From NCBI RefSeq assembly GCF_000787775.1, contig NZ_BBPM01000003.1, positions 91,189-155,188 of the forward strand: a stretch of 64,000 bases of DNA. The letters run 5' to 3'. Numbering within the stretch: the stretch's first letter is position 1; each line of letters starts with the position of its first letter. The DNA comes from Streptacidiphilus carbonis (GTDB taxonomy: Bacteria > Actinomycetota > Actinomycetes > Streptomycetales > Streptomycetaceae). The notes below the pieces were generated by a model that did not search any database, had not been told where the DNA came from, and was given only the letters and a program-made list of their open reading frames with translations. This document shows, piece by piece, positions 1,704 through 63,678 of the stretch. The position numbers and the translations under genes are program-made.

Positions 1704-3254
1704 ATGCGATCCCGCACCACACTCCTCCTCGGCACGGCCGCCGCGGTCACCGGCTTCACAGCGGCGCTGCTGCCGTTGGCCGCGTCCAGCGCCGCGGCGA
1801 CCGCCGTGTCATGCAGCGTCAGCTACTCGGTCGGCAACGACTGGGGCAGCGGGTTCACCGCCGCCGCGACCATCACCGACACCGGCGGCTCCGCCATCCC
1901 GTCCTGGACGCTGACCTACACCACCACCGGCAACCAGACCCTGCAGAGCGGCTGGAACGGCACCTGGTCCCAGACCGGCCACACGGTCACCGTCGCCGCG
2001 CCCAGCTGGAGCAGCACGATCGCCGCCGGCGGCTCGGTCACCACCAACGCCAACTTCGGCTACTCGAACACGAATTCGGCACCCACCGGCTTCGCCGTGA
2101 ACGGCGTGGCCTGCGGCGGGCCGGGCACGCCCAGCGCCACCCCGACCACGGCGCCGCCCACGACCGCACCCCCGACCACCGCACCGCCGACGACGGCTCC
2201 TCCCACCACCGCGCCGCCGACGACCGCGCCGCCCACCAACGGAACCGCGCCCGCCCTGCACGTCTCCGGCAACAAGCTGGTGAACGCCAGCGGCAGCACC
2301 GTCACCCTGCACGGGGTGAACCGCTCCGGGGCGGAGTTCGCCTGCGTCCAGGGCACCGGGATCTTCGACGGACCGGTCGACCAGACCTCCGTCGCCGCGA
2401 TGGCGAGCTGGCACATCAACGCCGTACGGGTGCCGCTGAACGAGGACTGCTGGAACGGCGAGTCCAACGTCCTGGCCGCCTACTCCGGCGCGAACTACAT
2501 CAACGCGATCAAGGCCTACGTCACCCTGCTGCACCAGAACGGCCTGGTCGCCATCCTCGACCTGCACTGGACCGACGGCGTCTACAGCGGAAACTCGTCC
2601 GCCTGCTCCACCGCCACCGCGACCTGCCAGAAGCCGATGCCGGACGCGGCCCAGGCGATCCCGTTCTGGACCTCGGTCGCCAACACCTTCAAGGGCGACA
2701 ACTCGACGGTCTTCGACCTCTTCAACGAGCCCTACCCGGACCGCGCGACCAGCACCACCGCCCAGGCCTGGACCTGCTGGCGGGACGGCGGGACCTGCTC
2801 CGGCATCAACTACCAGGTAGCCGGGATGCAGTCGATGGTGAACGCGGTACGCGGCACCGGCGCGAGCAACGTGCTGATGCTCGGCGGTCTCGCCTACTCC
2901 AACGACCTCACCCAGTGGCTGACCTACGAGCCGACCGACCCGGACCACGACCTGGCCGCCTCCTGGCACTCGTACAACTTCAACACCTGCAGCAACAGCT
3001 CCTGCTGGACCAGCCAGATCTCCCCGGTACTGGCCCAGGTCCCGCTGGTCACCGGCGAGTTGGGCGAGAACGACTGCGCCCACGGCTACCTGGACACCCT
3101 GCTCCCCTGGCTGGACAACGCCGGCGCCTCCTACCTGGCCTGGACCTGGAACACCTGGGACTGCTCCTCCGGCCCGTCCCTGATCAGCAACTACGACGGC
3201 ACCGCGACCGCCTACGGCGCCGGCTACAAGGCCCACCTGGCGGCCCTGGGGTAG
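1704..3254 (+). CDS. Secreted GH5 endoglucanase with N-terminal CBM2
   Basis: This 516-residue secreted cellulase would cut internal beta-1,4-glucan bonds. It has a signal peptide (residues 1 to about 33, MRSRTTLLLG start), a CBM2 cellulose-binding module (about 34-137, with Cys near both ends), a Thr-Pro linker made of PTTAP repeats (about 138-179), and a GH5 catalytic domain (about 183-516). FDLFNEPYPD carries the acid/base Glu (about 342) and LVTGELGEND the nucleophile Glu (about 452). An in-frame start 14 codons upstream would put a non-signal extension ahead of the signal peptide, so ATG 1704 is chosen even though its ribosome site is weak (GGAA at a long distance). It is divergent from the GH6 cellulase and probably co-regulated through the CebR boxes. 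Confidence 0.92.
   Translation: MRSRTTLLLGTAAAVTGFTAALLPLAASSAAATAVSCSVSYSVGNDWGSGFTAAATITDTGGSAIPSWTLTYTTTGNQTLQSGWNGTWSQTGHTVTVAAPSWSSTIAAGGSVTTNANFGYSNTNSAPTGFAVNGVACGGPGTPSATPTTAPPTTAPPTTAPPTTAPPTTAPPTTAPPTNGTAPALHVSGNKLVNASGSTVTLHGVNRSGAEFACVQGTGIFDGPVDQTSVAAMASWHINAVRVPLNEDCWNGESNVLAAYSGANYINAIKAYVTLLHQNGLVAILDLHWTDGVYSGNSSACSTATATCQKPMPDAAQAIPFWTSVANTFKGDNSTVFDLFNEPYPDRATSTTAQAWTCWRDGGTCSGINYQVAGMQSMVNAVRGTGASNVLMLGGLAYSNDLTQWLTYEPTDPDHDLAASWHSYNFNTCSNSSCWTSQISPVLAQVPLVTGELGENDCAHGYLDTLLPWLDNAGASYLAWTWNTWDCSSGPSLISNYDGTATAYGAGYKAHLAALG
2142..2237 (+). repeat. Tandem repeat encoding the PTTAP linker
   Basis: About six 15-nt units encode a repeated Pro-Thr-Thr-Ala-Pro linker between CBM2 and the GH5 domain. 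The units vary at third positions, as expected for an old repeat kept for its amino acid sequence. Confidence 0.85.
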
Positions 3255-3439
3255 GCCCCGGGGCCCGGAGGCTGGAACGGGGGCCGGGACGGGACCGTCG
3301 CGGGGGGCGGGGTCCGTCACCGACCGAACCCTTTCCAGGCGCCGGGCCCAGCCTGCGCGCCCGCTCCCACTGGCCCGCCGTCACCTCCACGGGGCGGCGG
3401 GCCCGTGCACGGCCGAGAGCGACCGCGACGGAACAGCCG

Positions 3440-4486
3440 TCAGTCGCGGAGCAGGGCCACCGAGGCGAGCAGGGTGGCGGTGCCCGCTGCGGCGGGGAGG
3501 GTGAGGCGCTCGCCGAGCAGGGTGATGCCGAGGAGCAGGGCGGCCACGGGTTCCAGCATCATCACCACCGACACCGCCGTCGCCCGGACCACGGTCATGG
3601 CCGCGAAGAAGAGCGAGTAGGCCAGCGCGGTGGGCACCGCGCCCAGGTAGACGAGCAGGGCCACCGCCGTACCCAGGTGGTGTGCGGAGGGGAGCAGGGG
3701 TCCGGTCGCGGCCGAGAGCGCCAGCAGGGCGAGCGCGCCGACGGCGAAGCCGCTGAGGGCGCGGTCGTAGGCGTCGTAGGTCCCGCTGTCGCGGTGCCGG
3801 CCGTCCCCGCCCTGCGCCTGCGTCTGCGCCTGCGTTAGGGCCTGCGTTCGGGCCTGGGCCTGGGTGAGCAGGTTGATCCCCGCCGAGCCGGCCGCCGAGC
3901 CGAGGGCGCAGAGCAGGCCCCAGAGCGGGGCGGTCGCATGTGACGAGGTGTCACCGCCGAAGGCGAGCAGGGTCAGGCCGGTGACCGCCAGGGCGATCGT
4001 GGCGACGCCGCGCCGGCCGATCCGTTCCCCGAAGAACACCCGCGCCCCCAGGGCGGTGAGCACCGGGGCGGCGCCGAGGGTGGCGGTGGTGCCGAGGGCG
4101 AGTCCGGCAAGGTCGACGGCGGCGAGGTAGCAGGTCTGGAAGGACGCCATCAGGATGCCGGTGCCGATCAGGACGGCGGTCCTCGGGCGTGCGCTGCCAC
4201 CGGTGCGCCGGTGCAGGAACGGCCTGGCGGCAGCGAGCAGCAGTGCGCCGACGGCGAAGCGCCAGAACGAGACGGCGATCGGCCCGAGGCCGCTGCTGCG
4301 GTGCAGGATCGCGGCGGCGGCGCCGGCGCTGCCCCAGGAGGCCGCGGCGAGGCCGATGGTGATCAGCGCGCGGCGGCGGGCCGCAGGCGTGGGTCCGGCC
4401 GACGGCGTGTCCGCGTCCTGGGCATGGACCCGGGTGCGGCCGCGACGGCGTGCGGGAAGGGACGGCAAAGAAGGCTGAGCAGGCAT
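3440..4486 (-). CDS. EamA/DMT-family transporter
   Basis: This 348-residue integral membrane protein has the two EamA repeats of the drug/metabolite transporter superfamily: about ten hydrophobic helices from residue 40 on, SWGSAGAAAAI in helix 1, GTTATLGAAPVLTAL in the first repeat and LVYLGAVPTALAY in the second. Members export amino acids, nucleosides or other small metabolites; the substrate here is unknown. Oddities are a 38-residue basic cytoplasmic N-terminus and a Gln/Ala-rich low-complexity insertion at about 208-226 in the central loop. The start has CGGAG seven nt upstream. A long structured leader with a short reading frame lies upstream (4487-4700). Confidence 0.88.
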   Translation of the reverse strand: MPAQPSLPSLPARRRGRTRVHAQDADTPSAGPTPAARRRALITIGLAAASWGSAGAAAAILHRSSGLGPIAVSFWRFAVGALLLAAARPFLHRRTGGSARPRTAVLIGTGILMASFQTCYLAAVDLAGLALGTTATLGAAPVLTALGARVFFGERIGRRGVATIALAVTGLTLLAFGGDTSSHATAPLWGLLCALGSAAGSAGINLLTQAQARTQALTQAQTQAQGGDGRHRDSGTYDAYDRALSGFAVGALALLALSAATGPLLPSAHHLGTAVALLVYLGAVPTALAYSLFFAAMTVVRATAVSVVMMLEPVAALLLGITLLGERLTLPAAAGTATLLASVALLRD

Positions 4487-57370: not shown

Positions 57371-59122
57371 ATGCAGGAACAGGGCGGGACGGTCAGGTCC
57401 GGTGCGGCCCGGATCACGGCCCGGCGGGTGGGGGTGGACGCCGCCCGGGGCGGGGCGGAGATCCTGCGCGGGATATCGCTGACGGTCCTGCCCGGGCAGT
57501 TGCTGGCGCTGGCGGGGAGCAGCGGTGCGGGGAAGACCACGCTGCTCGAGGTCCTCGCCGGGGTACGCGCCCCCGACCGCGGCTCGGTCACCGCGGCGCC
57601 GGGAGCGCTGGGGTTCGTTCCGCAGGACGACATCATCCACCGGGATCTCCCGCTGGCCCGGACACTGGAGTACGCGGCACGGCTGCGGCTGCCGTCCGGG
57701 ACCGGGAGCACCGAGGTGCGGGCCGCGGTCGACCGGGTGCTCGGCGCGCTGGGGCTGACCGAGCGGGCCGGGTTGCGAGTGGGACGGTTGAGCGGGGGCG
57801 AGCGCAAGCGTGCCAGCATCGCGGTCGAGTTGCTGACCCGGCCCGAGGTGCTGTTCCTGGACGAGCCGACGTCCGGTCTCGACCCCGCGACCGGCGCCGA
57901 ACTCATCACCCTGCTGCGGGAGCTGAGCAGGCAGGGCACGGCGGTGGTGCTCACCACCCACACTCCGGCGGACCTGTCCGGCTGCGACAGCGTGGGCTTT
58001 CTGAGCCCGGACGGGCGCCTGGTCCACCTGGGCCCACCGGAGGGGCTCAGTACCCGCTTCGGCGTCGACACCGTCGAGGAGGTCTACGGGGCGGTCACGG
58101 AGAACACCGAGGACGCTGGGGACGCTGGGGACGCTGGGGACGCTGGGGACGCTGGGGACGCCGAGGATTACGTCGTCCAGGACCTGGCAGGGACCGGACC
58201 CGACCCGGCACCGGGCCCCGGCGGCCCGCGTCCGCTCGGCTCGTTCGGCCAGTGGGCGCTGCTCACCCGGCGCAGTGCGGACATCATGCTCCGCAACCGG
58301 CTGTCGGTCGCGGTGCTGGCCGGCTCGCCGGTGATGATCGTGGCGATGTTCGTGATGCTGTTCCGGACCGGGGCGTTCGACGCGTCCGACCCAAGTCCCG
58401 CCACCTCGGGGATGATCCTTTTCTGGATCGCCTTCGGAGCCTTCTTCTTCGGCCTCACCTACGGCCTGCTGCAGATCTGCACCGAGGTGGCCGTCGTCCG
58501 CCGGGAGCGGCTGACGGTGCTTCGGCTGGGTCCCTATGTGCTCTCGAAGGCGACCGTGCTCCTGCCGGTCCTGGCGGCGGCCGACGCGCTGCTGCTGGTC
58601 GTGCTGCGGGCGCTGGACCGGCTGCCGGCGGCCGGTTGGCCGGTCTACGGGTCGCTGTTCGCGACCACCGTGCTGGCCTCGGCCGCCGCGCTGGCCATGG
58701 GTCTGCTGGCGTCGGCGGCGGTGTCGGAGCCCGGGCAGGCGACGCTGATGCTGCCGCTGCTCTGCTTCCCGCAGGTGCTGTTCTCCGGCGCCTTCGTCCC
58801 GGTGCCGCAGATGGCGTGGCCCGGTCGGGCGTTGAGCTGGGCGATGACCAACCGCTGGGCGTTCGAGTCGCTGGGCAGCGGGATCGGCCTGGACGCGCTC
58901 TGGGCGCACGGCCGCTCCCCCCTCGGGCCACCGCTGCTGTCCTCCTACGGGGACACCTTCGGCGGACCGACCGCACGGGGCTGGGTCTGGCTGGCCGGCT
59001 TCACCGTGCTGTTCCTGGCCGGGGCCTGGGCGGTGCTGGCCCGGCGCTGCCCGCAGGCCCGGGCGGCAGGGACCCGGGCCGGGGTCCGCGGGCCGGAGGT
59101 CAGCAGCGCAGCCGCGGGCTGA
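57371..59122 (+). CDS. ABC half-transporter, ATPase fused to ABC-2 permease (ABCG-like)
   Basis: This 583-residue protein has a nucleotide-binding domain (Walker A GSSGAGKT, signature LSGGERKRASIAVEL, Walker B LFLDEPTSGLD) followed by six ABC-2-type helices, the order of White/ABCG half-transporters. The linker contains repeated Gly-Asp-Ala units. ATG 57371 has GGGGAG 5 nt upstream. It follows the PadR-methyltransferase gene, suggesting an efflux function under that regulator. Its 3' end overlaps the convergent class V gene by 23 nt. Confidence 0.9.
   Translation: MQEQGGTVRSGAARITARRVGVDAARGGAEILRGISLTVLPGQLLALAGSSGAGKTTLLEVLAGVRAPDRGSVTAAPGALGFVPQDDIIHRDLPLARTLEYAARLRLPSGTGSTEVRAAVDRVLGALGLTERAGLRVGRLSGGERKRASIAVELLTRPEVLFLDEPTSGLDPATGAELITLLRELSRQGTAVVLTTHTPADLSGCDSVGFLSPDGRLVHLGPPEGLSTRFGVDTVEEVYGAVTENTEDAGDAGDAGDAGDAGDAEDYVVQDLAGTGPDPAPGPGGPRPLGSFGQWALLTRRSADIMLRNRLSVAVLAGSPVMIVAMFVMLFRTGAFDASDPSPATSGMILFWIAFGAFFFGLTYGLLQICTEVAVVRRERLTVLRLGPYVLSKATVLLPVLAAADALLLVVLRALDRLPAAGWPVYGSLFATTVLASAAALAMGLLASAAVSEPGQATLMLPLLCFPQVLFSGAFVPVPQMAWPGRALSWAMTNRWAFESLGSGIGLDALWAHGRSPLGPPLLSSYGDTFGGPTARGWVWLAGFTVLFLAGAWAVLARRCPQARAAGTRAGVRGPEVSSAAAG
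58112..58156 (+). repeat. Five perfect 9-bp tandem repeats in the ABCG-type gene
   Basis: GACGCTGGG is repeated five times without change, coding Asp-Ala-Gly units in the linker between ATPase and membrane domain. Perfect DNA identity suggests recent expansion; copy number can vary without breaking the frame. Confidence 0.92.
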
Positions 59123-60518
59123 GCTGTTCGTCCCCCACTCGCCGGTCCCGGTAGGAATCGGCCAGGAAGCCGAGGAAGGCGTCCACGTCGGCCTGGTTGG
59201 AGGAGAGGCCCAGCGAGACCCGGACCGCGCCACCGGAGGGCAGTCCGAGCCGGGACAGGTAGTCGTCGATGGTGCCGGTGGTCCGCCGGACCGCACCGGC
59301 CAGCAGCCGGCGCGGGATGCCGAAGGCGCCCTCCCCCGCACCGGGGTTGCAGAAGCAGCCGGTCCGCAGCGAGATGCCGCGGGCGCTGCTCTCCCTGCTG
59401 ACGATCCGTTCGTCCACCACGGCACCGTCCGGGGCCAGCACATTGAGGGTGACGCTGCCGCCCCGGCGCTCGGTGGTCTCCGGGCCGTAGAGGCGGACCA
59501 TCGGCGCCCCGTTGCCGTGGCGCAGCGCGCGCAGGCCCTCGAGGAGTCCCGCCGTCAGCCCCATGACGTGCTCGTGGATCGCGTCGATGCCGATGCCCCG
59601 GACGTGGGCCAGCCCGGTCGCCACGTCCGGGATGCTGAGGAAGTTGAGGGTGCCGTCCTCGAACGCGGTCTCGTCGTCGGTCATCCGGTGCCACTCCCCC
59701 TGGGCGCTGACGACCTGGATGGTGCCGCCGGAGAACCAGGGCCGGCGCAGCCCGGCCAGCGCCCCGCGCCGGGCGACCAGGCAGCCGATGCCGGTCGGGT
59801 AGCCGAAGACCTTGTACCAGCTGACGGTCACGAAGTCGGGGCGCACCCGGCTCAGGTCCAACGCATTGCTGGGAAGGTAGGCGGCCGCGTCCAACAGGAC
59901 GTCGTAGCCCCGCTGCTGGGCTGCCGCGATCCACTCCAGCGGGTGCTGGACACCGGTGAAGTTGCTCTGCGCGGGATAGGCCAGCAGACCGGGGCGGCGG
60001 CGTGAGCGCGGGCTGAGGCTCCGCAGCAGGGCCTCCTCCGAGATCCGCAACTCCGGCCCGTCGAAAGGCACATAAACGGTCCGCGCGCCCTTGGCGCGGG
60101 CGAACTCCCGTAGGCCGTTGACCGAGTTGTGGTTGTCCAGCGGCAGCACCAGCCGGCTCCCCCGGCCGAACCGGTAGGCCTCGCCGACGACCCGGCAGGC
60201 GCCGCTGGCGTTGGCGGTGAAGACCGCCGCGTACTCCTCCGGATCGGCGTTGAGGTGCCGCAGCACGGCCGCGCGGGTCTCGGCGACCAGCCGGTCGGAG
60301 GCGGCGGCGGTGGGGTTCTCCGAGTGCGGGTTGCCGAAGCAGTCGCCGGTTATCCGCGCGGCGTGGGCGGTGAGTTGCGACTCCGCCGGCAGCCCGGCCC
60401 CGGTGTGGTCCAGGTAGACATGGCCCTTGCGGTCGAGATAGCCGTACTCCTCGGCGCGCAGCCGCGCGAAGGAGGATCCGGATGCGGGGACGGATGCTGG
60501 CACGGATGCGACGGACAT
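59100..60518 (-). CDS. Class V PLP enzyme, molybdenum-cofactor-sulfurase-like
   Basis: This 472-residue aminotransferase-V-fold enzyme has YLDHTGAGLP at the N-terminus, LLDAAAYLPSNAL (PLP Asp), SWYKVFGYPTGIG (PLP Lys) and a Cys-bearing loop TGCFCNPGAGEGAFG. These features match the sulfurase domain of Mo-cofactor sulfurases (ABA3/HMCS type) more than IscS. No MOSC domain is attached. GGAGGA precedes ATG 60518. It runs in the same direction as the ECF-GH128 gene, 31 nt after its stop. Confidence 0.87.
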   Translation of the reverse strand: MSVASVPASVPASGSSFARLRAEEYGYLDRKGHVYLDHTGAGLPAESQLTAHAARITGDCFGNPHSENPTAAASDRLVAETRAAVLRHLNADPEEYAAVFTANASGACRVVGEAYRFGRGSRLVLPLDNHNSVNGLREFARAKGARTVYVPFDGPELRISEEALLRSLSPRSRRRPGLLAYPAQSNFTGVQHPLEWIAAAQQRGYDVLLDAAAYLPSNALDLSRVRPDFVTVSWYKVFGYPTGIGCLVARRGALAGLRRPWFSGGTIQVVSAQGEWHRMTDDETAFEDGTLNFLSIPDVATGLAHVRGIGIDAIHEHVMGLTAGLLEGLRALRHGNGAPMVRLYGPETTERRGGSVTLNVLAPDGAVVDERIVSRESSARGISLRTGCFCNPGAGEGAFGIPRRLLAGAVRRTTGTIDDYLSRLGLPSGGAVRVSLGLSSNQADVDAFLGFLADSYRDRRVGDEQLSPRLRC

Positions 60519-60549
60519 GGTTCCTCCTGCGGCGGGAACGACTACCGCA

Positions 60550-62505
60550 TTATCCGCCCGCACTCTCGAACGCCCGTCCGGCATCCGTGGCCACCGGACC
60601 GCTGCGGAACAGCCCGGTACTGGCCGCCGTGTCCGAGGCGGGGAGAGCGAACCAGGCGTAGCGCTGCAGGTAGTCGAGACCGGCGAGCATCTTCGTGGAG
60701 GCGGTGACGAAGGCGGCCTGCTGCGGGCCGGTCGGGTAACTGCTGGTGCCGCCGGAGAAGTTGATGAGCGCGTACTCGGTGAGCCAGATCGGCAGGTGGT
60801 AGCGGTCGTGGACGGCCTGGAGGTAGCCGCGCAGCTGGGCGACGGCGTCCGTGGTGGTGAAGTCGCCGCCGTACCAGTGCAGGGCGATGAAGTCGACCCG
60901 GTAGCCCTTGGCCTTGGCCCCGCTCATGAACCGGTCCAGCCAGCCCCCGGCGGTGTCGCCGCCGTAGGCGACGGCGGGGCTGCCCAACACCTTCCCGGTG
61001 GCCTCCAGCTGCGGCCAGAACTGCAGTGCCTGATCGACCGTCATATGGGACTGGGCGGACATGTCGGGCTCGTTGAAGCCCAGCAGGTAGGGACCGGCGC
61101 TCTTCGCCTGTGCCAGCGCGGTCGCGGTGACCGATCCGGATCCCCAGATCATCGGCACGAAGCCGACACCGGTCGGGGTGGTGATGCCCGAGTGGGTGGT
61201 GGACCAGGTGTAGTACCAACTGGCCCCGGACTGGGTGAGCGCGCTGTTCACGCCGCTGAAGCTCCAGGCGCTGACCCCCTTCTTGGACGAACTCGCCGGG
61301 ACGACCGGCGCCTGGACGGCGGGGGCCTTCGATGCACCGGGCGCGGCGCTGCGCGATGCGCTCGCGCTGTTGGAGGCGGTGCGGCTGTGCGTCGCCGCGG
61401 GAGACGGCGGGGCTGACGGCGTGGTCGGTGACGGTACGTCAGGCGCGGTCGCCGCCGCGGCGGACCGGTCGGCGGCAACCGGCCCGGTGTCCGCGGCCGG
61501 GCCAGTGCCCAGGCCCGCCACCAGCAGCGCGGCGACCGCGACGCCTGCGACCCCGGTGGCGGCGGCCGAGACCGCGAACACCCGTCCGTGCAGCAGCGCC
61601 CGGCCGCCCTTCGATGCCGCGCGGTGCCCGCGGCGTAGCGCCGCGGTGTGCGGCAGAGCGCTCTGCGCATTCTGCGCGCCCCGCGCGCCCCAGTCGGCCA
61701 GCGCCGGCGGCACCGGGAGCAGCGGCAGCCCGCCCAGCAACTGCCCGACCGGGAACAGCGACCGGCTCTGCCCGTCGCACACCGCGCAGTCACGGATGTG
61801 CCGGGCCAGGCGCTTGCGCCAGAGCGCTCCCGGCGTACCGTCCCAGGTCCGGGTCAGCTCGTACAGACCCGGGCAGCCCGGCTCGGCCCGGAGCGCGCGG
61901 ACGATGGTCCGCGCCGTCTGCATCTGCTCCTTCATCCGCTGGACCCGGACCGAGGTGTGCCGCGCCGACAGCCCCAGCGCCTCGGCCAGTTCGGACCGGC
62001 CGATCTCGCCGGTCTCCTCCAGCCACCACAGCGCGAGCAGCGCCCGGTCGTCCTCGTCCAGCCAGCGGGTCGCCTCGGCGACCTCGCGGCGCTGGTCGGT
62101 CAGGCCGAGCCTGAGCACGGTGAGCGCGGTGAAGTCCGAGGCCGGGTCGGGTATCTCCTCGGCCGTGTCCAGACCCGCCTGGCGGCTCCGGGAACTGCTG
62201 CGCTCCCGCTCCCGGTCGCGGACCTGGCGCACCGCGATGGCGACCAGCCAGGACCGGTACGCCTCGGGTTCGCGCAACTCGCCCAGCCCGCGGACGACCC
62301 GCAGAAGGGTCTCCTGGACCACGTCGTCGGTGTCCGGATGCCCGTCCAGGGCTCGGCCGACGATGTTGTAGACCAGCGGCAGCGACTCGGCCACCAGCAG
62401 GTCCAGGGCCCGGGCGTCGCCCCCGCGGGCGGCCAGCACCGTGCCCGCGCTCGCCGCGCCGGTCCTCCTGCTCCGTCCGCCTGAGGTCGTCCCGCCTGAG
62501 GTCAT
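60550..62505 (-). CDS. ECF sigma factor fused to a transmembrane extracellular GH128-like glucanase domain
   Basis: This 651-residue, five-part protein runs: sigma region 2 (about 34-96; NIVGRALDGHPDTDDVVQET), sigma region 4 (about 141-201; LAEALGLSARHTSVRVQRMK), an anti-sigma-like zinc motif HIRDCAVC (His236, Cys240, Cys243), one membrane helix (about 309-332), a Ser/Pro/Ala linker (about 336-408) and a C-terminal glycosyl-hydrolase domain (409-651). The last domain resembles GH128/Asl1 endo-beta-1,3-glucanases, with both catalytic Glu kept: LLGFNEPDMS (479) and IWLTEYAL (577). Topology would place the sigma part inside and the glycosidase outside. It probably activates genes, including the divergent thaumatin-like gene, on sensing a beta-glucan. 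ATG 62505 is the best start. Confidence 0.9.
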   Translation of the reverse strand: MTSGGTTSGGRSRRTGAASAGTVLAARGGDARALDLLVAESLPLVYNIVGRALDGHPDTDDVVQETLLRVVRGLGELREPEAYRSWLVAIAVRQVRDRERERSSSRSRQAGLDTAEEIPDPASDFTALTVLRLGLTDQRREVAEATRWLDEDDRALLALWWLEETGEIGRSELAEALGLSARHTSVRVQRMKEQMQTARTIVRALRAEPGCPGLYELTRTWDGTPGALWRKRLARHIRDCAVCDGQSRSLFPVGQLLGGLPLLPVPPALADWGARGAQNAQSALPHTAALRRGHRAASKGGRALLHGRVFAVSAAATGVAGVAVAALLVAGLGTGPAADTGPVAADRSAAAATAPDVPSPTTPSAPPSPAATHSRTASNSASASRSAAPGASKAPAVQAPVVPASSSKKGVSAWSFSGVNSALTQSGASWYYTWSTTHSGITTPTGVGFVPMIWGSGSVTATALAQAKSAGPYLLGFNEPDMSAQSHMTVDQALQFWPQLEATGKVLGSPAVAYGGDTAGGWLDRFMSGAKAKGYRVDFIALHWYGGDFTTTDAVAQLRGYLQAVHDRYHLPIWLTEYALINFSGGTSSYPTGPQQAAFVTASTKMLAGLDYLQRYAWFALPASDTAASTGLFRSGPVATDAGRAFESAGG

Positions 62506-62571
62506 CTCGTTCCGTGTCCCTTCGCCCGGTGTGCGGCGCCCCGCTGTACAGGAGACGGGGTGAGCCGCCGC

Positions 62572-62604
62572 GGACAACGGAAACCTACGGGATTTCTGTT
62601 GTCC
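62572..62604 (+). promoter_or_regulatory. ECF-type promoter within an inverted repeat
   Basis: GGAAAC (62579-62584) and GTC (62601-62603) are 16 nt apart, the -35/-10 pattern of ECF promoters, 28 nt before the first Met of the thaumatin-like frame. GGACAAC (62572-62578) and GTTGTCC (62598-62604) form perfect 7-bp inverted arms around it. A target of the divergent ECF factor is the natural reading. Confidence 0.55.
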
Positions 62605-62630
62605 TGTGGGACCTCGCCCGTCTCCGATAC

Positions 62631-63678
62631 ATGGGAACCAGAGGACGTAGTTCCGGAACGTGGATGCGGTGGAAGTGGTGGGCGGCGCTGGCCGCCACCG
62701 GAGTGGCGGTGCTCGCCGTGGTCATCAGCACCACATCCGCGCAGTCGGGGCCGGCTCCGACCACCGTGGCGGTGGCGCAGCCGTCCGTCCCGGGGGCGGA
62801 CGCCGCTCCGTCCCCGTCCCTGTCCGCGGCCCCCCCCCGCATCCCTGTCCCCCCGCGCCGCCGCCTCGCCGACCCACCCCTCCGCCGGCGCCCCGGCCTC
62901 GACCGCCCGTCCCGCCGCCACCGCTGCTGCTGCCTCCCGGACGCGGACCGCCTCCGTACCCGCGTCGCCCGCAGCTGCCGGCCACCGCAGCGTCACCTTC
63001 GTCAACGCCGTCTCGCAGACGATCTGGGTGGCGGCCGGTCAGCAGACCGCGCAGCCCGCGCTGAGTACCACCGGCTGGGTGCTGAAGCCGGGTCAGTCGC
63101 TGACCGTCTCCGTCCCCGACCACTGGAACGGCCGTTTCTGGGGCCGCACCGGGTGCTCCTTCAACGCCGCCGGATCCGGCCACTGCCAGACCGGGGACTG
63201 CGACGGCAGGTTCCAGTGCCCCGGCTACGGCTCCATCCCGGCGACGCTGGCCGAGTTCAACCTCAACGCCTGGAGCGGGCTGGACTTCTACGACGTCAGC
63301 ATGGTCGACGGATCCAATCTGCCGATGTGGATCAACCAGGTCGGCGGCAGCTCCAAGGACGCGATCAGCGCCGACGGCTGCTCGGCCGCCGGCTGCACCA
63401 AGCCCGTGGTCTGCCCCGCCCCGCTGCAGATCCACGCCGGCGGGGCGGTGGTCGGCTGCGAATCGCCGTGCGGGGTGTTCGGGACGGACCAGTACTGCTG
63501 CCGGGGCCAGTGGGCGGCACGCTCGGCCTGCGACCCCACCAAGTGGCCGGTGGACTACGCGGCCGACTTCAAGCGGGCCGAGCCGTTCGCCTACTCCTAC
63601 TGCGACGACGACGCCACCAGCACCTTCACGGCGACCGGGGAGGCCGGTTACCGGATCACCTTCGGCCTGTCGCCGTAG
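62631..63678 (+). pseudogene. Secreted thaumatin-like protein, split by a poly-C frameshift
   Basis: The N-terminal part (from ATG 62631, or 62664) encodes a signal peptide (MRWKWWAALAATGVAVLAVV) and a Ser/Pro/Ala linker. The C-terminal part, in the next frame, encodes a complete thaumatin domain: VTFVNAVSQTIWVAAG, WGRTGCSFN, GDCDGRFQC, PATLAEFNLN, DFYDVSMVDGSNLPMWI, CPAPLQ, CESPCGVFGTDQYCC and YSYCDDDATSTF. Removing one C from the run of nine at 62830-62838 joins the two. Thaumatin-like proteins bind beta-1,3-glucan and are often antifungal. The frameshift is a sequencing slip, a mutation or a phase switch. Confidence 0.8.

Follow-up and report, generated by a model that had tools for sequence, protein, structure and literature searches.

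Actinobacterial ECF sigma factors of the ECF52 and ECF53 kinds carry a zinc-finger and transmembrane extension, in some cases with a predicted glycosyl hydrolase domain, and activation by proteolysis has been proposed (PMC10766802, PMC8999054). The proteins with enzyme domains are so far computational predictions that lack experimental validation (PMC10766802). SCO4117 (ECF52) has a carbohydrate-binding module, and controls development (PMC5826349). RsgI6 of Clostridium thermocellum is a membrane sensor with an outer GH10 domain that controls the sigma factor SigI6 through a series of proteolytic steps (PMC4711584, PMC12203970). IutY of Pseudomonas putida (ECF243) has the sigma factor and the membrane anti-sigma factor in one protein, and is activated by proteolysis (PMC8999054).

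We have analyzed a 64,000-nucleotide stretch of the Streptacidiphilus carbonis genome (contig NZ_BBPM01000003.1), here called the window. It encodes a protein whose sigma-ZAS-TM-GH128 architecture matches the published ECF52/ECF53 description, a likeness that concerns the architecture. Like those proteins it has an ECF sigma factor, a zinc-finger-type domain, a transmembrane segment and an outer carbohydrate-related domain in the same chain (PMC10766802, PMC8999054, PMC5826349). The preliminary description had stated that ECF factors with C-terminal sugar-related extensions occur in actinobacteria, and the ECF52/ECF53 literature bears this out (PMC10766802, PMC8999054). The window protein differs in that its outer domain is identified as GH128 subgroup I with an intact active site, and in that we can predict a particular promoter for it and a thaumatin gene as its target. 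It does not carry the outer carbohydrate-binding module smart00776 of the SCO4117 type; the only outer Pfam match is PF11790. In RsgI6/SigI6 the sigma and anti-sigma factors are two proteins and the GH10 domain is nearly inactive. An RsgI anti-sigma factor is a separate protein that pairs with a sigma factor of SigI type, whereas the sigma factor of the window is of ECF type and fused. IutY differs in responding to aerobactin (iron-starvation surface signaling) and has no sugar domain.

Architecture and conservation of the fusion

The preliminary description had read sigma regions 2 and 4, an anti-sigma-like HxxxCxxC, one membrane helix, a Ser/Pro linker and a GH128-like domain with both catalytic Glu residues in one continuous frame. 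Profile, structure, hydropathy and alignment evidence agrees with this on every part. The features of the protein, with the evidence for each, are as follows.

60550..62505, minus strand: sigma-ZAS-TM-GH128 protein, 651 aa (frame, profile matches, hydropathy, alignment)
62197..62397, minus strand: sigma region 2, residues 37-103 (PF04542)
61906..62088, minus strand: sigma region 4/HTH, about residues 140-200 (TIGR02937 to residue 197; helices in model)
61720..61893, minus strand: zinc anti-sigma-like domain, residues 205-262 (alignment conservation; helices in model)
61777..61800, minus strand: HxxxCxxC motif, HIRDCAVC, residues 236-243 (sequence, alignment)
61510..61584, minus strand: transmembrane helix, about residues 308-332 (hydropathy and charge bias)
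61294..61509, minus strand: outer linker rich in Ala/Ser/Pro/Thr, residues 333-404 (composition of residues 334-408, alignment)
60556..61293, minus strand: GH128 subgroup I domain, residues 405-650 (Pfam, PDB sequence match, model, Foldseek)
61069..61071, minus strand: catalytic Glu479, equivalent to E102 of AmGH128_I (alignment, structure match)
60775..60777, minus strand: catalytic Glu577, equivalent to E199 of AmGH128_I (alignment, structure match)

The frame is uninterrupted over its 651 codons, and encodes, from the N-terminus, the ECF sigma domains, the HxxxCxxC zinc domain, one membrane helix, the linker and the GH128 domain. An artefact of a long GC-rich frame was ruled out because the complete fusion is encoded intact by 18 of the 46 loci fetched from a scan of GTDB species genomes. 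Its carriers belong to several actinobacterial families (Streptacidiphilus, Actinacidiphila, Streptomyces, Planotetraspora, Cellulosimicrobium, Micromonospora and a MAG). Two copies are frame-broken, those of Phytohabitans suffuscus (L033) and Cellulosimicrobium arenosum (L039), and the break in the former lies in the linker, past the membrane helix. Most Micromonospora GH128 loci encode a membrane-anchored GH128 protein with neither sigma factor nor promoter motif.

TIGR02937 matches residues 33-197 with 60.3 bits, above its cut-off of 42.9 bits, and PF04542 covers residues 37-103, so that both sigma2 and sigma4 of an ECF factor are present. The zinc domain gave no Pfam zinc-finger match in a search of the 651-aa protein. 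Yet it has HxxxCxxC within a helical domain following sigma4, as expected of a ZAS domain; the His and Cys residues are invariant in an alignment of 19 fusions, as are 20 of the 58 positions of the domain. The lone strong hydrophobic segment is residues 311-329, with a mean Kyte-Doolittle value of 2.14, and the net charge is +6 on the presumed cytoplasmic side of the helix against −2 outside.

In the Pfam search PF11790 (Glyco_hydro_cc) matched residues 424-645 with E=5.8e-48, in the C-terminal region where the preliminary description had expected it, and there was no second outer match. A PDB sequence search found the AmGH128_I structures 6uaq, 6uas, 6uat and 6ufl as the closest solved relatives, with E about 1e-90 (5.7e-91 for 6uaq). 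A single-sequence AlphaFold model was poor (pLDDT 41), and we used instead an AlphaFold2 model built from 47 sequences. In this model pLDDT is around 95 across most of the GH128 barrel. Nearly all of residues 261-397 score below 50, and the model says nothing about the membrane region. Foldseek superimposed the outer domain on 6uaq with TMt 0.97, an rmsd of 1.4 Å and 60% identity. The two share fold, subgroup and catalytic residues, but the solved chain has 263 residues with no sigma or membrane part. The entries 6uat, 6uas and 6ufl carry mutations at E102 and E199 of AmGH128_I, and the corresponding E479 and E577 are invariant in all 19 aligned fusions. Judged by sequence and model, the outer domain belongs to GH128 subgroup I and is a predicted endo-beta-1,3-glucanase. 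Enzymes of family GH128 are retaining (PMC10956234).

Mean identity to the window protein over the 19 fusions is 0.76-0.77 for the sigma regions, 0.71 for GH128 and 0.54 for the zinc domain, but 0.27-0.38 for the two linkers and transmembrane segment (about 0.28 for the linkers). The enzyme domain is thus conserved about as well as the sigma domains, and both linkers far less. In a sigma tree the GH128-bearing sigma domains form one clade, with support of 0.83.

The promoter motif and the thaumatin-like gene

Upstream regions of the fused sigma genes have in common TTTCYGTTRTC-N15-SGTCTCC, which resembles the −35/−10 pair of an ECF-type promoter. The window has two copies, back to back (62583 and 62593), between the sigma gene and a divergent thaumatin-like gene.

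62551..62583, minus strand: predicted autoregulatory promoter, TTTCCGTTGTC-N15-CGTCTCC (motif comparison and scans)
62593..62625, plus strand: second copy of the motif, facing the thaumatin-like gene (motif scans)
62631..63678, plus strand: thaumatin-like gene with membrane helix, linker and thaumatin domain, the last at 62998-63675 (PF00314, PDB match, neighbor conservation)

We prefer ATG 62505 as the start of the sigma gene over TTG 62577 (675 aa), because the conserved −10 element (62551-62557) falls between these codons; a start at the TTG, upstream of that element, was ruled out.

The start of the thaumatin-like gene lies 126 bases from that of the sigma gene. Its thaumatin domain is of plant type (PF00314, E=6e-65), and the best PDB match is 2ahn (E=3.8e-45). 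The thaumatin-like protein family includes glucan-binding and antifungal members. The frame is broken as sequenced, near a run of nine C at 62830-62838, whereas the S. jeojiense ortholog is a single frame; the break is either an assembly error or a true frameshift. The divergent neighbor is also found in S. jeojiense, A. oryziradicis and four Planotetraspora species. In S. niveus (L045) thaumatin and GH128 are fused in one protein, and in Actinacidiphila most thaumatin genes do not adjoin a sigma gene. Aminotransferase class V-like genes, read by eye, flank the sigma/thaumatin pair on either side, at 59100-60584 (minus strand) and from 63783 onward (plus strand).

All loci were scanned for the motif allowing two mismatches, with reversed sequences as control. 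It precedes nearly every fused sigma gene (18 related genes and that of the window), with a spacer of 15 bases, or 16 in a few, and each divergent thaumatin gene has it upstream on the other strand (six loci and the window). The reversed sequences of these loci gave zero sites. In the 8.46 Mb genome there are just two exact copies, both at the sigma/thaumatin locus; allowing two mismatches adds two places genome-wide, against one in the control. Sites with at most one mismatch occur in 146 of 249 genomes of the family, and the backwards control gave four sites in total. Motif sites also precede alginate-lyase-like, beta-helix-like, CAP and thaumatin genes. An exact copy also precedes the gene of a conserved secreted protein of at least 498 residues in L114, L116, L122 and other loci, for which Pfam gave no confident family; a gene resembling it is the immediate downstream neighbor of the own-genome paralog L083.

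As an independent test, by protein family, we examined thaumatin genes more widely using GTTRT-N17/19-GTCTCC within 650 bases upstream, taking Streptomycetaceae thaumatins of at least 48% identity. The motif is present before 22 of 24 plant-type genes, mostly at loci with no sigma gene, and before none of six distant thaumatins within the same 650 bases. There were no sites in 1.69 Mb of reversed control. A fixed N15 spacer had first given 6/31 sites, and one base more gave 22/30; this relaxation was chosen after the first result was known, while the control stayed at zero. Given that 22/30 is reached only with the relaxed spacer, the spacer varies by one base.

Paralogs with other outer domains

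The same genome encodes three more sigma-ZAS-TM proteins, with 47-49% identity. Two have an outer domain of no assigned family and one has a GH99 domain; elsewhere the outer domain is CAP or a Pel9A-like beta helix. The GH99-like protein (L085, 718-2739; PF16317) is a possible mannan sensor, and the beta-helix proteins of Catellatospora (L042, L047) are possible pectin sensors. The C43 paralog adjoins a protein 43% identical to its own outer domain (E=3e-40). This neighbor weakly matches a cell-wall anchor and has a two-mismatch motif upstream. At L090 the own-genome paralog (823-2598) adjoins an exported protein (2807-3670) having the same outer domain with 43% identity, and a Pfam search of that domain gave no match. 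In Streptomyces (L099, L103, L104, L107) a sigma-ZAS-TM-CAP protein adjoins a membrane CAP protein whose gene has the same promoter motif.

Putative sensor and exported protein are matched in several cases: a CAP sensor with a CAP protein, a sensor with an exported protein of the same domain, and the GH128 sensor with a glucan-related thaumatin. From these pairs we tentatively suggest, as a possibility rather than an expectation, a family of one-protein sensors in which each outer domain has its counterpart in the exported protein under the sensor's control, giving an inducible antifungal response in which wall contact leads to transcription. The suggestion of an antifungal response comes from the likeness of the exported proteins to plant pathogenesis-related proteins, among which CAP corresponds to PR-1 and thaumatin to PR-5, and beta-1,3-glucanase is functionally like PR-2.

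A possible route from glucan contact to transcription

The preliminary description proposed a one-protein sensor of beta-1,3-glucan. This fits all of the evidence, and the observations that would have refuted it turned out otherwise: the GH128 match is strong, there is a membrane helix, and relatives conserve the frame. Sensing, hydrolysis and proteolytic release are putative steps. The two most informative features, the divergent thaumatin-like gene and the shared promoter motif, were not part of that description. We consider it probable that the protein is a self-contained ECF52/ECF53-type transmembrane switch. Its sigma domain would be tethered under the membrane and kept inactive by the putative inhibitory action of the fused zinc anti-sigma domain. 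Contact of the GH128 domain with the putative signal, beta-1,3-glucan (from fungal or oomycete walls, or as laminarin or curdlan), would release the sigma part, most likely by cleavage within or close to the one membrane helix; proteolysis as the putative course of release is suggested by the anatomy and by the precedents IutY, SCO4117 and RsgI6. The freed sigma factor, putatively the one that reads the motif, would transcribe from TTTCYGTTRTC-N15/16-SGTCTCC promoters, driving its own gene by positive feedback as well as the thaumatin-like gene. The product of the latter would be exported with a putative antifungal role. The placement of the two copies suggests that glucan contact is wired straight to gene expression.

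The outer domain might instead act purely as a binding module whose catalysis has been lost in practice. RsgI6-GH10 binds despite very low activity (PMC4711584), and GH128 subgroup VII includes oligosaccharide-binding proteins, but the invariance of both Glu residues in the fusions argues against a pure binding module. We think this module possible but on the unlikely side; it is a variant of the switch and compatible with it. The signal could also be internal, because the best-studied relative, SCO4117, acts on sporulation and antibiotics (PMC5826349), so that GH128 would place the sensor in the cell's own wall or read a self glycan as an indication of envelope or developmental state. The closeness of the outer domain to subgroup I endo-beta-1,3-glucanases in sequence and fold, and a predicted partner that is a plant-type thaumatin, make this unlikely.

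A sensor of redox state or zinc, with the zinc domain as the true detector and the enzyme as a mere tethered glucanase, appears very improbable. The HxxxCxxC motif is indeed invariant, and many zinc anti-sigma factors respond to oxidation (PMC8999054). However, outer domains differ by subfamily, and the CAP and unassigned types match the neighboring exported protein; a purely cytoplasmic sensor is disfavored because it leaves this matching unexplained. There is a small chance that the motif is read by a different sigma factor, with the GH128-bearing sigma gene and the thaumatin gene simply co-regulated. It may be common to several sigma factors, because paralogs with similar promoters exist; three sigma-ZAS-TM paralogs are present in this genome, and in Streptomyces the motif fronts other gene families too. 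Yet it stands right before genes of the GH128-bearing sigma clade across families, the usual sign of autoregulation, and both exact genomic sites are at the sigma/thaumatin locus. Weighing against the transmembrane switch are the thaumatin genes of Actinacidiphila, mostly remote from the sigma gene, and the broken frame of the window's own thaumatin gene, but it remains our preferred reading.

The features that appear to be new are the promoter, the precise identification of the outer domain as GH128, the connection to thaumatin, and the pairing of outer domains with exported neighbors. For an ECF52/ECF53-type protein with an enzyme domain, there are now precise predictions of beta-1,3-glucan as ligand, of a 33-base promoter motif and of a thaumatin-like target gene. 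If these are true, soil actinobacteria may sense fungi through contact with an enzyme, and respond with proteins like those of plant defense.
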